Shown here: positions 4,322 to 39,941 of the stretch, one piece after another
How the letters are laid out: the number at the start of each line of letters is the position of its first letter
Position numbering within the stretch: the stretch's first letter is position 1
From: Clostridiaceae bacterium
GTDB lineage: Bacteria > Bacillota > Clostridia > Oscillospirales > QAMX01
Assembly (NCBI GenBank): GCA_018384365.1
Contig: JAHAYX010000017.1
Location: 1 to 64,000, forward strand
Direction of reading: 5' to 3'
DNA length: 64,000 nt
The notes under the pieces: model-generated
Database searches by the model: none
The model's input: only the letters and a program-made list of their open reading frames with translations
What the model was told of the DNA's origin: nothing
Position numbers and translations under genes: made by a program

Positions 4322-5449
4322 TTATTTCCCCGGGAAATACATATACAGGCTGCATTTGATCATGCCGTTATAAAGCCAGCGCTTGCGGTTTGCACGATGG
4401 CCGAAAAACTTTTCAAATTCCGGATCCGGCGTAATGACATATACGCTTTTCCCGTCCAGCGTACCCAGTGCGCGGCCCAGCCCGCGGTAGAGCGCGTGTG
4501 CCGTTTCCTGATCGCCCAGCCGTTCGCCATACGGCGGATTGGTCACCATCACGCCGCGCCAGGACGAAAGGTCCGACTTTGTCACATCGGCCACGGAGAA
4601 GCGGATCATATCGGCGACGCCCGCGCGTCGGGCATTGGCCTCCGCGCGGCGGATGCAGGCCGGGTCGATATCCCGCGCCTCGATCACGGCCGGGGACGGC
4701 ATTTCCCCGGCTTTTGCCTCCTCCCGCGCCCGATTCCAGACCGCACGATCCACGAACGGGAAGCCCTGCGCATCGAAGCGGCGGTTGATGCCGGGCGCGC
4801 GGCGGCGCGCCTTCAGCGCCGCTTCAATCGCGATCGTGCCGCTGCCGCACATGGGATCCAGAAAGTGCATATCACCGCGGAAACGCGAAAGATCCACCAT
4901 GGAGGCCGCCAGCGTCTCGCGGATGGGCGCCACACCGCCCTCTGTACGCCAGCCGCGCTTGTAAAGCGGCGCGCCGGTTGTGTCGATGAAGATGTCCGCG
5001 CGGTCGCGGATGATGGAAAACTGAATCTGTACCGCCGGACCGGACTCATCCAGCCACGTCACACGGCGTTTGGCCATCAGGCGCTCCGCGACCGCCTTTT
5101 TGATGATGCGCTGGCAGGCCGGGATGCTCGTCAGCTTCGAGCGCAGGCTGTATCCCTTCACAGGGAAGGCCGTGCCCGGCGCCAGATACTCTTCCCATGC
5201 TATCCGGCGCACGCCGTCAAACAATTTATCGAAATCATCGGCCGGAAAAGACCCCAGCCGGATCAGAATCCGCTCACAGTAGCGCGAATGGATATTCGCG
5301 CGGGCCAGCGTATCGTCGCCGCCCGTAAAATACACATGGCCGTCCTCACAGCGCACGTTTTCAAAGCCCAGACGGCGGAATTCTCCCGCCGCAATGCTTT
5401 CCACGCCGATCAGGCACGGCGCACAAAATTCATACGTTTTCAATCGCAC
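4322..5449 (-). CDS. THUMP-domain rRNA guanine-N2 methyltransferase (RlmL/YpsC-like)
   Basis: A 375-residue SAM-dependent methyltransferase of the group often annotated as N6-adenine-specific DNA methylase but acting on 23S rRNA guanine. An N-terminal THUMP/ferredoxin-like region (residues 1-160) is followed by the catalytic UPF0020 domain. Motif I is DPMCGSGTIAIEA near residue 200 and motif IV is NPPYGERLG near 305. The NPPY tetrapeptide marks exocyclic amine methylation. It starts with GTG and overlaps the egsA stop by 10 nt, so translation is probably coupled. Length matches the B. subtilis YpsC type (single methylase domain), not the long E. coli RlmKL fusion. Confidence 0.88.
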   Translation of the reverse strand: MRLKTYEFCAPCLIGVESIAAGEFRRLGFENVRCEDGHVYFTGGDDTLARANIHSRYCERILIRLGSFPADDFDKLFDGVRRIAWEEYLAPGTAFPVKGYSLRSKLTSIPACQRIIKKAVAERLMAKRRVTWLDESGPAVQIQFSIIRDRADIFIDTTGAPLYKRGWRTEGGVAPIRETLAASMVDLSRFRGDMHFLDPMCGSGTIAIEAALKARRRAPGINRRFDAQGFPFVDRAVWNRAREEAKAGEMPSPAVIEARDIDPACIRRAEANARRAGVADMIRFSVADVTKSDLSSWRGVMVTNPPYGERLGDQETAHALYRGLGRALGTLDGKSVYVITPDPEFEKFFGHRANRKRWLYNGMIKCSLYMYFPGK

Positions 5450-6618
5450 AGTTCCTTTACCACAGAATCGGTGTATTCCTCCAGTTTTCCCGCCGCAGCC
5501 ACGTGTTTCAGCATGGAGTACTGCGGACGCAGGTGCATGGCCTCGAGGATGGCACGGCGGAAAAGCTCCGTCGAAATGCCGATTTCCGCCGGACGCACCG
5601 GCGCGCCGACCTTACAAAGCAGCGCCCGCACGGCATCCGCGGACGGCGTTTCGATATCCGTCAGACCGTCGCGGCGCGCAAATTCATAAAAGCGCAGCAT
5701 GGCAAGTTCCGCCACGCCGACCGACGCGCCGTGCAGCGGGTAATCGCGGCCGTTCGCCACCGCGTCGATGTCGCAGTAATGAGCAATATGGTGTTCACAG
5801 CCGGACGCAGGGCGCGTAACGCCCGCCAGGCCCATGGCCATACCGGAGAGGATCAGCGCCTCGGTCAGATGCCCGACCGCCTCGGGATCCCGGTTCGCCA
5901 CACCCTCCGCAGAAGCCGCGCAGGTTTCCAGCGCACCGCGCATGAAGTCGGAAATCAGCGGGCAGCGGTACTCTCCGCGCTCGCGTTCGCCCAGCAGCCA
6001 GTCCGCCAGTGCCGTGTACTTTCCAAGCACATCGCCAAAGCCCGCCGCGATCATCTCACGCGGTGCACGGCTCATCACATCCGTATCGGCAAATATGGCG
6101 TCGGCATAGTGCGAATAAAAGCTCAGCTTCGTGCCGCGGCAGACAATGGGCGACGAGCTGCCTGCATAGCCGTCCATGGACGGTGCGGTGCAGACAATGA
6201 AATACGGCAGGCCCAGGCGGCCGCTGACCAGCCGTGTCATGTCGTTCAGCACGCCGGAACCCACGGCGATCAGCAGGCTGTAACCGGCTTTTTCATCCGA
6301 TGCCTCGAGGAACAGCCGCCCGACGGCAAACGCATCGGGGTGCAGATGCTGTTCCGGGAAAACATAGGCATCGGCCTCGAGTCCGGCATCCTTCAGCTGC
6401 TGCAGCACGCGCTCGCCCAGCACGGCAAACGTGTGCACATCGGCCGCCAGCAGGATGCGCCGCGGTGCATAAGCCGCAGCCGTTTCGGCGACGCGCGCCG
6501 ACGCGCCGGGTCCTACCGCCAACGTGCCGATTTTGATGCTGTGTTCATGCCCGCACGCGCAGGAAAAAGAAAGATCCGTCAGCTCGGAAAGCGGACGCTT
6601 TAGAATATCCAGGGTCAT
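5440..6618 (-). CDS. egsA: sn-glycerol-1-phosphate dehydrogenase (EgsA/AraM)
   Basis: A 392-residue NAD(P)H- and metal-dependent dehydrogenase of the glycerol dehydrogenase superfamily that reduces dihydroxyacetone phosphate to sn-glycerol-1-phosphate. Family motifs are visible: GSGVLNDMTR in the nucleotide-binding half, TAPSMDGYAG next to it, and metal ligands in the second half (Asp in AAGFGDVLGK, His in SGCEHHIAHY, His in YPLHGASVG). In B. subtilis this enzyme supplies G1P to PcrB for heptaprenylglyceryl phosphate lipid; no pcrB is in this window. It is first in an operon with the overlapping RNA methylase gene. The start has a GGAGAG-type ribosome binding site about 8 nt upstream. Confidence 0.9.
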   Translation of the reverse strand: MTLDILKRPLSELTDLSFSCACGHEHSIKIGTLAVGPGASARVAETAAAYAPRRILLAADVHTFAVLGERVLQQLKDAGLEADAYVFPEQHLHPDAFAVGRLFLEASDEKAGYSLLIAVGSGVLNDMTRLVSGRLGLPYFIVCTAPSMDGYAGSSSPIVCRGTKLSFYSHYADAIFADTDVMSRAPREMIAAGFGDVLGKYTALADWLLGERERGEYRCPLISDFMRGALETCAASAEGVANRDPEAVGHLTEALILSGMAMGLAGVTRPASGCEHHIAHYCDIDAVANGRDYPLHGASVGVAELAMLRFYEFARRDGLTDIETPSADAVRALLCKVGAPVRPAEIGISTELFRRAILEAMHLRPQYSMLKHVAAAGKLEEYTDSVVKELCD

Positions 6619-6695: not shown

Positions 6696-6724
6696 TTGAA
6701 AACGAAAAAAGAGTATGGTATCAT
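6696..6724 (+). promoter_or_regulatory. promoter of the P-type ATPase-like gene
   Basis: TTGAAA (6696-6701), a 17-bp spacer and TATCAT (6719-6724) preceded by TG form an extended -10 promoter. It is back to back with the egsA promoter. About 135 nt of leader with no evident structure follow before the start codon. Confidence 0.7.
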
Positions 6725-6868: not shown

Positions 6869-9800
6869 ATGGCCTGGTATGAAAAAAGCATTGAAGAAAC
6901 CATCCGGGAATTAGACACCAATGCGGCCGCCGGCATCTCCCCGCTGGAGGCTTCCGGCCGCCGTACCAAATATGGCTCCAACGAGCCCGTAAAAAAGCCG
7001 GAACGCGTGATTGCGCCCGGCGGTACGGGCAGCATGATGCTGCCTTCGATTTTATTGCTTGCCGCGGCAGTTCTCTGCCTGCTTTCCAAGAGTTATGTGG
7101 CTTCTGCCGTACTGTTTGCCAGTGCGCTGGTCACGGCGCTGCTGAAAACATACTCGCTTGCCAAAATCCGGCGCGTGCTCTCCTCCATCGCGGCTGTAAC
7201 CGCGCCCATGACAACCGTTGTGCGCGAAGGGATCCCTGAAATCATGGAAACATCCCTGCTTGTCCCCGGCGACCTGGTGCAGCTGCGCGCGGGGGACATC
7301 ATCGGCGCCGATATGCGCCTGATCGAAAGCATCAACCTGGTCATGGACGAAAGCATCCTGCCGGGCGGCTTTATGGGTGCGCATAAGGATGCGCACGCCG
7401 TATCCGAGGCCGGTTCGGAGCTGTGTACGCACGCCAATATGTGCTATACCGGCACCGTGGTGCGTTCCGGCAGCGGACGTGCCATCGTCGTTGCAACCGG
7501 CGGGGACATCGCCGCGCCGTTTGCCGTACGTTCCCCGTATGAACACGAGCGCCGCAGCGCCTTAAACCGTACCATTGCCCGCCAGAACAAACGCGCCGCC
7601 GTCGTCGGCATCCTCTGCAGCGCCGTGATCCTGCTGTGCAGCCTGCTTGTCCAGTCCATGAGCATCGAACATCTGACCGGCACCATTCTTCTGGCTGTCA
7701 CGCTGGCCGTCACGGCCATTCCGGCAGGGCTGTGCATCACGGAAGCCGCGCTTTCCGCCGCCTCCATCCGCCGTCTTGCCCTGCAGGGCACCGTTGTGAA
7801 ATCCCTGGACGCCATGGACAGGCTCGCCTCGATCGACACCATCCTGGCGCAGAAAACGGGCGTGATCAGCTCCGATGAAATGACGGTTACCGCCGTCTGG
7901 ACAGGCGGCCATCTCATCGACGTACGCGGCCGCGGCTATGCGCCGGACGGACGCTTCCTGGACGCGGACGGACAGGATATCGACGTCAGCCGCAACCGCA
8001 GCCTGGCGCTGACGCTCATCGGCGGCACGCTCTGCGGCGATTCCGACATTGAAGAGGTTTCCGGACGCTGGGGATACCGGGGCGACCCGACGGAGGCCGC
8101 GCTGGTCACGTTGGCGGCCAAAGCCGGTCTGAACCGGTCGGAGGTACTCGCCATGTTCCCCCGTGTTGCCGAATTCCCGTTTGAACCCGAGCGCCGCCGT
8201 ATGACGACCGTGCACAAACGCGGACGCCAGGGGGTTGCCTACACAAAAGGCGCGCCGGATCTGATCATCGCGCGTTCCTCCTCCATCAATCTGGGCGGGA
8301 CCGCCTATATGCTGACCGACCGCACCAGAGAACAGCTGATGGAGGTTTCTCACCGGTTGGCCGAACAGGGCCTGCGTGTGATTGCCGTGGCTTACCGCGA
8401 ATTTTCCGAAATGCCTGCCCGCTTCGATGCGGATGAAATCGAGCAGGAGCTCGTTTTTGCCGGATTTTGCGGCATGGATAACCGCGCCACACCCGATTCC
8501 GTTTCCGCCTTTAACCTGTGTGCCGCAGCCGGCATCCGCACCGTGATCGTCACGGGCGACGATCCGGCGACAGCCGCCGACCTGGCGCTTTCCATGGGCA
8601 TTACCGGCGAGGTTTTGGAAGGCGGCAGCATTGACGCCATCCCGCTTGACGAACTCTGTGAAAAAATGCGCAAAACGCGCGTGTGCGCCGGAATCGCGCC
8701 CTCGGAAAAACACGCAATCGTCACGGCGCTGAAGCATAACGGTGCCACGGTCGCCGCCACGGGAACCCGCGCATCCGATGCACCCGCGCTGATGGCGGCG
8801 GATATTGGCGTTTCCATCGGTGCAAACGCGCCCGAACTCACCCGCGACAGTGCGGATATGGTTTTGGAGGACGCCGGTTATGCCGACGTGGTCCGTGCGG
8901 TGGAGGAAAGCCGCCGCAGGTTCACTGCACTGCGCTCCTACTGCGGATTTACGTTTATCTGCCTGATCGTTGAAATGCTGACCGTATTTGCCCTTCTGGT
9001 TTCCACGCCGCCGGTGCAGTTTTCCATTCTGCATCTTGCGTGGCTGAATATTTTCATGGCGCTGATCCCGGCCTTCGTCATTGCCAGCGAACCCGGGGAA
9101 CGCGACATCATGCGCCGCCCCCCGCGCGAGGCTTCGGCCCCGGCATACGGACGGCTCACCATCGTCTCCGCTTTCATTCAGGCCTTCCTGCCCACCGTTT
9201 TGATCGTCGCTTCGTATTTCATCGCGCACGGCCGCGCGGCGGCCGCAGGACTGACCGAAGCAGAGATGGAGGTTTCTGCGAAAACGGCCGTCTTTGTCAC
9301 GCTGACACTTTCCCTGCTTGCATTTGCCCATTCCTGCCGTTCCGAGCGGACCAGTCTGGTCCGGCTCGGTGCCTTTTCAAACCGTGCGCTGACAGCCGTA
9401 ACGCTGGGCGTTGCCGCTGTCCTCGTTGCCGCCGTTACCATTCCGGCGCTGCACGCCGTTTTTGATACGGCCGCGCTTGGCGTGACGGAGTGGATCGTGG
9501 CGCTTGGTATCGCGGTTCTGTCTCTTGTCTGGAGCGAGCTGTACAAAGGCCTTTTGCGTCCCATTCTGGCGCGCAGCATCCGCGAAAAGAACCCTGCGGA
9601 GCAGGCTGCGTCCGGCGGAAGCCTGACGCAGCGTCTCTTTGAAAAATTCGAGGGCGACGACCCGACGCAGGAGGAGGAACCCTCCCAGCGGGAAAAACGT
9701 GCCGCCAAAAAGGCCGCCCAGGCGGCAGAGGACGCCGAAACAGCAGAGGAAGCTGCCGAAGAAGAGCTTCCCGCCTTGCCATCAGGCGATGAACCGGAAA

Positions 9801-10147
9801 TCATCGAAGCGGACGACGCCGAACAGGCGGACGTACCGGCCGAAACCATACGTCTGCCCGGCGTACCGGACGGGCAGGATGCGGCGCCGGAGGAGATTCT
9901 TTCCGGTCTGCCGGATGAGCTGCGCCAATATGAGGATATTCTCGCCGATCTCCCGCCGGAGCTTTTAAAAGACGCGCTTCCCTTTGCCGCCGGAGACGGC
10001 GAGACGGCAGAGGCCGTGCAGGAGTTTTCCGAGGAAGCGCCTGAAGCGCCCGCGGAAGAAGCCGCTTCCGGAAGCACGGACGGCACAGAAGTACTGCCGG
10101 AAACCGCCGCGCCAACCGAAGAATCGGATGAATCGAAAGACGAATAA
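6869..10147 (+). CDS. P-type ATPase-like protein lacking all catalytic signatures (pseudo-pump), with acidic C-terminal tail
   Basis: The 1092-residue protein has the full fold of a P2-type (calcium pump-like) ATPase: cation ATPase N-domain, membrane pairs near residues 55-100 and 245-295, nucleotide-binding domain (GDPTEAAL 405-412, PFEPERRRM about 437-445, KGAPD 460-464), TGD at 562-564, and C-terminal membrane helices to about 900. The catalytic residues are gone. The phosphorylated Asp of DKTGT is Gln328 (AQKTGV), the actuator TGES is PGGF (165-168), the TGDGVND loop is TGTRASD (631-637), and PEGL of helix 4 is PAGL (285-288). The calcium-ligand Thr-Asp of helix 6 reads Met-Ala in WLNIFMALIPA. 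The frame is intact with normal codon use. A tail of about 185 residues rich in Glu, Ala and Pro follows. GGAGGA (6855-6860) precedes the ATG. It probably cannot pump ions; a binding or regulatory role is inference. Confidence 0.85.
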   Translation: MAWYEKSIEETIRELDTNAAAGISPLEASGRRTKYGSNEPVKKPERVIAPGGTGSMMLPSILLLAAAVLCLLSKSYVASAVLFASALVTALLKTYSLAKIRRVLSSIAAVTAPMTTVVREGIPEIMETSLLVPGDLVQLRAGDIIGADMRLIESINLVMDESILPGGFMGAHKDAHAVSEAGSELCTHANMCYTGTVVRSGSGRAIVVATGGDIAAPFAVRSPYEHERRSALNRTIARQNKRAAVVGILCSAVILLCSLLVQSMSIEHLTGTILLAVTLAVTAIPAGLCITEAALSAASIRRLALQGTVVKSLDAMDRLASIDTILAQKTGVISSDEMTVTAVWTGGHLIDVRGRGYAPDGRFLDADGQDIDVSRNRSLALTLIGGTLCGDSDIEEVSGRWGYRGDPTEAALVTLAAKAGLNRSEVLAMFPRVAEFPFEPERRRMTTVHKRGRQGVAYTKGAPDLIIARSSSINLGGTAYMLTDRTREQLMEVSHRLAEQGLRVIAVAYREFSEMPARFDADEIEQELVFAGFCGMDNRATPDSVSAFNLCAAAGIRTVIVTGDDPATAADLALSMGITGEVLEGGSIDAIPLDELCEKMRKTRVCAGIAPSEKHAIVTALKHNGATVAATGTRASDAPALMAADIGVSIGANAPELTRDSADMVLEDAGYADVVRAVEESRRRFTALRSYCGFTFICLIVEMLTVFALLVSTPPVQFSILHLAWLNIFMALIPAFVIASEPGERDIMRRPPREASAPAYGRLTIVSAFIQAFLPTVLIVASYFIAHGRAAAAGLTEAEMEVSAKTAVFVTLTLSLLAFAHSCRSERTSLVRLGAFSNRALTAVTLGVAAVLVAAVTIPALHAVFDTAALGVTEWIVALGIAVLSLVWSELYKGLLRPILARSIREKNPAEQAASGGSLTQRLFEKFEGDDPTQEEEPSQREKRAAKKAAQAAEDAETAEEAAEEELPALPSGDEPEIIEADDAEQADVPAETIRLPGVPDGQDAAPEEILSGLPDELRQYEDILADLPPELLKDALPFAAGDGETAEAVQEFSEEAPEAPAEEAASGSTDGTEVLPETAAPTEESDESKDE

Positions 10148-10337: not shown

Positions 10338-10895
10338 ATGCGAAAATTTCTGCTTCTTACTGCCGTGCCGGTCTTTCTGCTTCTTTTCTCAGCCTGTACC
10401 TATCTACCGGCAGGCTCCGATGCCGCGCCTTTCTCCTTTGAAGAGCTTGCGCACGTGTTTGCCTTGACGGAATCGAAAATTTTTGATACTTACGGCGTAC
10501 CGGACGAAGAAAAAACCTCCGATTTCCAGGGCGTTCCCGCGAACGAGTTTCACTATGGCAAAAACATTTTCTGCGCGGAGGGCGCCAGCGAATATGTCTA
10601 TTATGTCCGCCTGTATGACGAAACGCTTGCAGCGCCGCGCGGTATCACGTCGGGCATGAAGCTGCAGGATCTGGTTCCCCTGTTTGCCTCCACGGGCGAC
10701 GACACGCTGTATACCGGTCCGGACGGCGAGCGTTACCGTCTTTTATACGGCACTTACGAAAGCGGCGGCGACTATGGCGTGCTGTTTTACGAGGGACGCA
10801 CGCCCGTCCTCGCGGAGTATTCGAGCGAGGGCTGCATCTTCGCCTGCGGCATCAAAAACGAAAAAGTGGAATACTTCGAATTTTTTGTGGAATAG
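10338..10895 (+). CDS. small lipoprotein of unknown function
   Basis: A 185-residue predicted lipoprotein. It has a short charged N-terminus (MRKF), a hydrophobic core and the lipobox LFSAC at about residues 15-19. The rest reads as a compact beta-rich domain (ASEYVYYVRLYDE, GERYRLLYGTYES, GDYGVLFYEGRTP), somewhat reminiscent of the BLIP/SmpA type, but I do not recognise a family. ATG 10338 follows AAAGGAGG at 10324-10331; longer upstream reading is shadow coding. A TATACT box at 10291-10296, with TGGAAA 17 bp upstream, may be its promoter. The SDR gene begins 15 nt downstream and is probably co-transcribed. Confidence 0.75.
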   Translation: MRKFLLLTAVPVFLLLFSACTYLPAGSDAAPFSFEELAHVFALTESKIFDTYGVPDEEKTSDFQGVPANEFHYGKNIFCAEGASEYVYYVRLYDETLAAPRGITSGMKLQDLVPLFASTGDDTLYTGPDGERYRLLYGTYESGGDYGVLFYEGRTPVLAEYSSEGCIFACGIKNEKVEYFEFFVE

Positions 10896-37339: not shown

Positions 37340-37388
37340 AGTGTTTCTTTGAGAAGAGCTTTTCAAAAGCCCGGTTAACGTCATCAAA

Positions 37389-37480
37389 ACAATCTCCCTA
37401 CGTTGGCATTACCCAAATCAGGTGTTAAGGGACAGGAAAAATTTTCGCATCTCAGCCGACATTCCGGCGCCCCCGATTAT
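37389..37480 (-). promoter_or_regulatory. TPP (THI element) riboswitch
   Basis: The minus strand carries the conserved thi-box blocks in order: GGGGGCGCC, GGCTGAGATG, CCCTTAACACCTGAT, GGGTAATGCCAACGTAGGGA. AATC and GATT close helix P1 (37475-37478 with 37390-37393). The aptamer is followed by an intrinsic terminator, so ligand binding should attenuate thiT transcription. Confidence 0.95.
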
Positions 37481-37501
37481 TCAGTTTACGGTCCATCGTG
37501 T

Positions 37502-39771: not shown

Positions 39772-39847
39772 GCTGGTGTAGCTCAGCTGGTAGAGCAGCT
39801 GATTTGTAATCAGCAGGTCGGGGGTTCGAATCCGTCCACCAGCTCCA
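39772..39847 (+). tRNA. tRNA-Thr (anticodon TGT), CCA encoded
   Basis: A cloverleaf can be drawn: acceptor GCTGGTG/CACCAGC, D arm GCTC..GAGC, anticodon stem GCTGA/TCAGC with loop TTTGTAA, and T arm with GGTTCGAATC. The discriminator T is followed by encoded CCA (39845-39847). Confidence 0.95.
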
Positions 39848-39856
39848 ATCGAATAT

Positions 39857-39941
39857 GGGAGGATTCCCGAGTGGCCAAAGGGGGCAGACTGTAAATCTGT
39901 TGCTACCAGCTTCGGTGGTTCGAATCCACCTCCTCCCACCA
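39857..39941 (+). tRNA. tRNA-Tyr (anticodon GTA), CCA encoded
   Basis: Acceptor GGGAGGA/TCCTCCC, anticodon stem CAGA/TCTG with the GTA anticodon in CTGTAAA, a long class II variable arm (TGCTACCAGCTTC region) and GGTTCGAATCC in the T arm. CCA at 39939-39941. Confidence 0.95.

Follow-up and report, generated by a model that had tools for sequence, protein, structure and literature searches.

A P2A-type ATPase homologue without its phosphorylated aspartate: a selected pseudo-pump, and possibly a nucleotide-responsive switch, in a genus of Clostridiaceae

A phosphorylated aspartate is the defining feature of P-type pumps, and the superfamily has hardly any true pseudoenzymes on record: a word search of a 2023 review of the superfamily returned nothing on degenerate or inactive members, the single 'pseudo' lying within a species name (PMC10654040). 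ERMA/TMEM94, a eukaryotic P-type-like protein of the endoplasmic reticulum, lacks TGES and has GDGVND degraded to GSSANL, but retains the Asp (DKQGI), which is required for Mg2+ uptake (the D427N mutant is dead), and its nucleotide pocket is reported to be inaccessible (PMC13322241). In Plasmodium falciparum, GCbeta carries a degenerate P4-ATPase-like domain from which most signatures are gone (PMC6592433). In the open-access literature we found no bacterial pseudo-pump or other prokaryotic precedent, these two eukaryotic proteins coming closest, although papers outside open access may exist. Here we describe a gene at positions 6869-10147 (+) of a 64,000-nt stretch of contig JAHAYX010000017.1 from a Clostridiaceae bacterium (the whole stretch being called the window, and its genome G000), whose product has the architecture of a P2A calcium pump without the phosphorylated Asp, and which we interpret, with high confidence, as a selected pseudo-pump.

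The frame (6869..10147, +) is open over 1092 codons and encodes, in order, Cation_ATPase_N, E1-E2_ATPase, Cation_ATPase, Hydrolase and Cation_ATPase_C, all five above the Pfam gathering cut-offs, in agreement with the full P2-type domain order given in a preliminary description made from the sequence. Similarity extends over the whole length to LMCA1 of Listeria (E 1e-91) and to human SPCA1 (E 1e-86), phmmer retrieves PDB entry 6zhf (E 1e-91), and an AlphaFold2 (AF2) model, with a predicted local distance difference test (pLDDT) of ~90 across the nucleotide-binding (N) and phosphorylation (P) domains, has a Foldseek match at E 8e-57, which places the protein in the P-type superfamily by descent. 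TIGR01522, the NCBIfam equivalog for PMR1-type Ca pumps, scores 370.7 bits and does not reach its cut-off of 798.3. The protein has a full P2A (SPCA/LMCA-type) architecture.

To read residue states, the protein was aligned with 41 ordinary pumps from its own order or class; they are compared below with SERCA positions, whose numbers we assigned ourselves. The phosphorylated Asp (SERCA D351), present in 41/41 pumps, is replaced by Gln328 within QKTG (residues 328-331; 7850..7861, +), and Gln is found at this position in all three species of the genus that were compared. In the actuator (A) domain, PGGF (165-168; 7361..7372, +) stands in place of TGES, with P165 and G167 for T181 and E183, and is identical in the three species, TGES/TGE being invariant in the 41 pumps. 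The loop TGDGVND reads TGTRASD (631-637; 8759..8779, +), again identical in 3/3 species: D703 of the Mg2+ site is Thr633, G704 is Arg634 and N706 is Ser636, and the last Asp alone survives of the GDGxND motif. The cation site fares no better. In M4, PAGL (285-288; 7721..7732, +) replaces PEGL, the ligand E309 being Ala286 here and Ser in both congeners (PSS for PEG); in the M5 region (699-702; 8963..8974, +) N768 is Leu699, and Glu702, present in the window, is lost in the congener G001; in the M6 region (727-731; 9047..9061, +) the nearly invariant T799/D800 are Met730/Ala731. N727, equivalent to N796, is the sole residue of the set E309/N768/N796/D800 retained in the window, and is Gly in G001. 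As far as alignment can tell, the standard site does not allow an aspartyl phosphate, and no classical cation site is left.

Other parts of the active site have been kept. The N-domain contacts E409 (E442), F438 (F487), K460 (K515) and G461 (G516) are all present, as are K329 (K352), T330 (T353), G331, K614 (K684) and D637 (D707) in the P domain, together with its TGD motif (562-564; 8552..8560, +; T625-G626-D627). F438 lies in the adenine-site loop PFEPERRRM (437-445; 8177..8203, +) and is invariant across the pumps and the clade described below, and at the position of R443, which replaces K492 in the same loop, the five degenerate proteins of that clade all have Arg; the nucleotide-contact Lys460 lies in KGAPD (460-464; 8246..8260, +). 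All four N-domain contacts are present in 5/5 degenerate proteins. The preliminary description had listed the replacements in the five motifs, as well as the retained N-domain contacts and TGD, correctly; its statement that every catalytic signature is replaced holds for the Asp, TGES, most of the Mg2+ loop and PEGL, but not for the P-domain residues just named, TGD included.

We found syntenic orthologues in both other species of the genus compared, G002 (75% identity) and G001 (59%), each adjoined by an orthologue, 78-89% identical, of the divergent neighbour at 5440..6618 (-), which thus marks synteny in three species and which we take, from recognition of its sequence rather than from a family search, to be glycerol-1-phosphate-dehydrogenase-like. 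Selection rather than decay had been proposed beforehand, and close orthologues with DKTGT/TGES, or with frameshifts, had been named as what would overturn the proposal; both orthologues have instead open frames with AQKTG, PGGF and TGTRASD. Because both congeners carry the same replacements, an isolated mutant, chance and mistranslation are excluded. Across all three species, the new motifs PGGF, TGTRASD and that around Gln328 agree at 25/26 positions (background 57%), which only 0.16% of random placements match, and 51 of 142 pump-invariant positions are lost in all three species, 31 of these 51 having changed to one shared new residue. The ratio of nonsynonymous to synonymous substitution rates (dN/dS, Nei-Gojobori) of the core is 0.10 against G002 and 0.22 against G001, compared with 0.04-0.12 for neighbouring genes, values that are rough since dS is at least 1.4 and near saturation. 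A single neutrally evolving lineage with 0.7 substitutions per site (half the observed dS) should have taken about 57 nonsense hits, and none is seen. Neither relaxed selection nor the stops and frameshifts of a pseudogene are therefore found, with dN/dS ~0.1-0.2 and open frames in three species. The frame of the G001 orthologue (L043:7698-11543) extends beyond the conserved MAW start and allows one 82 residues further upstream.

In a careful tree of 20 proteins, the three pseudo-pumps belong to one clade (support 99/98) with a protein of G009, a protein of G006 and an intact pump of G010, whose inclusion places the origin of the six-member group within the P2A pumps. The five degenerate proteins, from three genera, group together (99/97). 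The G009 protein (L046:2638-5499) is an intermediate in which the Asp is present but within DMAG, with TGAR and VSD, and so is that of G006 (L047:8364-11396), which has DKTG, TGDQ and TGDSVSD and no cation site; both may be half-dead pumps with a function of their own. Clade members occur in 6/21 genomes of the family. Searches of the rest of the 394 genomes of the order yielded no further member, only ordinary pumps, and ordinary pumps alone were found among the loci read from 391 genomes of the class. A scan of viral contigs for a mobile or viral origin returned no relative, and in a contig scan for further homologues the sole named close record, CALWBW010000007.1, is the contig of G002. The stem leading to the window's genus is long (2.05 changes per site) and the branches inside the genus are short, which would fit a burst of change followed by constraint, although such long branches bring some risk of misplacement in the tree.

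In three genera the clade gene lies directly behind proB-proA with gaps of ~12-40 bases (G010: L045, G010:C68; G009: L046, G009:C72; G006: L047, G006:C76), which suggests an operon linking proline synthesis with an ion pump or pump-like protein in these genomes. In the window's genus proBA lies elsewhere, and in G000 and G002 a proC-like gene follows it; we dropped proline synthesis as a function of the pseudo-pump because of this lack of linkage. The simplest order of events is that an ancestral tail-bearing pump beside proBA lost its cation site and TGE in one lineage of the family, and that in the window's genus the gene was relocated and additionally lost the phosphorylated Asp and the Asp of the Mg2+ loop, its product having been held by purifying selection ever since.

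The acidic tail (residues 906-1092; 9584..10144, +) is mostly predicted to be disordered, with pLDDT <50 for most of 966-1092. It had been thought to be a new output domain, but an acidic tail with the same DPTQ motif (931-934; 9659..9670, +) is common to the intact pump of G010 and the two partly degenerate relatives, so that it predates the loss of catalysis and is ancestral. DPTQ is invariant in 6/6 clade members and occurs in no other locus compared; elsewhere in the tail conservation is low (46% and 39% identity), and no tandem repeats of note were found in it. In G001 the tail is much longer, with ~300 residues rich in E/P repeats. A docking site for phospho-Thr/FHA was also considered and set aside, FHA domains being present in all six genomes and too common to count.

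Where constraint lies within the protein was measured as relative divergence, i.e. the divergence of a domain divided by that of the whole protein, for the clade and for 263 pump pairs; as these pairs share sequences and are not independent, the N domain was also checked on 17 non-overlapping ones. The N domain (346-530; 7904..8458, +) is unusually conserved: its relative divergence is 1.40±0.13 in pumps (range 1.07-2.12, and 1.30-1.93 in the non-overlapping pairs) and 0.99, 0.71 and 0.72 in the pseudo-pump genus, below all 263 pump pairs, the partly degenerate pair G009-G006 showing the same shift (0.75). Conversely, M1-M2 reaches 2.06, 1.72 and 1.61 in the genus and 1.70 in G009-G006, against a pump maximum of 1.54, and in both pairs that include G001 M5-M6 is likewise high (1.72 and 1.71; pump maximum 1.32). 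The P domain lies at 0.71-0.77 in the genus and 0.80 in G009-G006 (pump maximum 0.74). These values indicate that constraint has shifted away from the ion-path helices and onto the N domain, where nucleotide is bound in pumps. The earlier suggestion of a nucleotide-responsive protein is supported only in its direction: judged against pumps, no large domain has become as constrained as the N domain, and its contacts are kept.

The best PDB match of the AF2 model is SPCA1 in the E1-Ca-AMPPCP state. Template modelling (TM) scores are 0.85-0.87 to SPCA1 E1-Ca-AMPPCP and CaE1-ATP and 0.62-0.64 to E2P, compared with 0.79-0.81 and 0.67-0.73 for the model of an intact-pump control; for CaE1-ATP the values are 0.87 and 0.81, and for E2P 0.64 and 0.73. 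The pseudo-pump model thus looks more E1-ATP-like than the control, which we take as a weak hint only.

To the proposal that the gene product is a pseudoenzyme of the P2A (SPCA/LMCA-like) calcium-pump branch acting as a membrane-anchored nucleotide-responsive switch, and not as a pump, we would give an even chance. ATP (or ADP) would be bound between the N and P domains without formation of an aspartyl phosphate, its occupancy would set a static, E1-ATP-like closed or open arrangement of the head, and a partner would sense this state by way of either the cytoplasmic tail or the head. Na,K-ATPase and SERCA bind ATP with higher affinity once this Asp carboxylate is removed, and an Arg substituting for metal has been proposed for some pseudokinases; the lost carboxylate, together with an Arg634 fixed in three species in the former Mg2+ loop, may here permit Mg2+-poor nucleotide binding. 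Phosphorylation is impossible in the mutants SERCA D351N and Na,K-ATPase D369N, which have been described as trapped in an E1-like state (PMC13322241). More tentatively, and with less than even confidence, we suggest that a prokaryotic P-type lineage became a membrane-bound ATP sensor by stepwise loss (G010 intact, G009 and G006 partial, the window's genus complete), with a tightened N domain, Arg634 in place of Mg2+ and the DPTQ tail relaying the signal.

The evidence for pseudo-pump status is strong; nucleotide sensing is an inference, and several observations weigh against this reading. Nucleotide-contact residues are retained under constraint, as expected of a nucleotide-binding pseudoenzyme, but a further SERCA contact, R560, invariant in pumps, is Thr541. 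M5-M6 is not relaxed between the window and G002 (0.61), and what keeps the N domain so constrained could be a surface for binding protein and not nucleotide. The conformational state of an AF2 model is weak evidence, the control differing merely by degree. Every sequence comes from metagenome assemblies, as all the genomes appear to, though three independent assemblies agree. The genus shows no conserved operon partner. A lipoprotein-like gene lies downstream at 10338-10895 (+) of the window and is conserved in G002 (74%); being absent beside the G001 orthologue, it is not a fixed partner.

The most probable of the alternatives, though unlikely in our judgement, is a nucleotide-independent scaffold, in which the A, N and P domains form a folded platform holding partners at the membrane and ATP is irrelevant. 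The heads are indeed better conserved overall than the membrane part (73% identity between the window and G001, against 46-51% for M1-2, M5-6 and M7-10, M3-4 standing at 68%), R560 and the Mg2+-site residues are lost, and the DPTQ motif is invariant; however, a pure scaffold would not need the four N-domain contacts that all five degenerate proteins retain, and it too has no linked partner gene. That the protein is a non-canonical transporter, still moving a substrate passively or otherwise, as claimed for ERMA/TMEM94, seems to us improbable: the membrane domain is complete, and in ERMA a P-type fold with altered motifs has been reported to carry out transport (PMC13322241), but ERMA needs the catalytic Asp that is absent here, the M4, M5 and M6 cation ligands are lost with substitutes varying among species, and the relaxation of M1-M2 is the reverse of what transport needs. 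That it regulates an active P2A pump of its own cell, or acts on one as a dominant-negative partner, appears slightly more improbable still. The window's genome does encode an intact P2A pump (G000:C63:20518-23148, L002), yet this has no full-length counterpart in G001 and G002 (93% and 94% complete), which contain no other full-length P2A pump and retain the pseudo-pump all the same, and P2A pumps are generally thought to act as monomers. Slow decay of a pseudogene, to which the loss of all residues that matter for turnover might point, is very improbable given the open frames, low dN/dS and identical new motifs in three species.

Upstream of the gene, a promoter-like element (TTGAAA-17-TATCAT; 6696..6724, +) lies 145 bases before the start codon, matches 10/12 consensus positions with a TG before the -10, and sits within a block in which G002 has exactly the sequence of the window; an Rfam scan near the gene found no RNA family or RNA leader. 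Elsewhere, the window contains a thiamine pyrophosphate (TPP) riboswitch at 37378-37484 (-), whose 71.4 bits exceed the Rfam gathering score, and two adjacent tRNA genes at 39772-39938 (+).

As a single bacterial family spans an intact pump, two intermediate forms and a clade in which conversion is complete, sequence comparison can show in what order the losses came, and it becomes testable what a pump fold does when it does not pump. The exchange of constraint between ion path and nucleotide domain offers a measurable signature for finding other pseudo-pumps. The SPCA/PMR1-type and LMCA1 P2A Ca2+-ATPases (TIGR01522; PDB 7yai, 8iwr, 6zhf) share with the protein whole-length homology, domain order, fold and N-domain nucleotide contacts; in contrast to them, it lacks the phosphorylatable Asp, TGE, the Mg2+-site Asp and a complete cation site, has the DPTQ tail, and falls far under the equivalog cut-off. 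Pseudokinases and other pseudoenzymes bind ATP without catalysis, nucleotide binding having been shown for several pseudokinases, and the likeness lies in lost metal and catalytic residues, a retained nucleotide clamp and selection on conformation; however, their fold is unrelated, and in the pseudo-pump nucleotide binding is a prediction. With ERMA/TMEM94, compared by features, it shares the P-type fold, the degraded GDGVND and the absence of TGES, but it is bacterial, has lost the Asp and retains the nucleotide-pocket contacts. PfGCbeta is P4-type, eukaryotic and fused to a guanylate cyclase, whereas the window protein has no cyclase or other known output domain. Neither ERMA/TMEM94 nor PfGCbeta is prokaryotic, and neither combines loss of the Asp with a retained nucleotide clamp in a free-standing protein.

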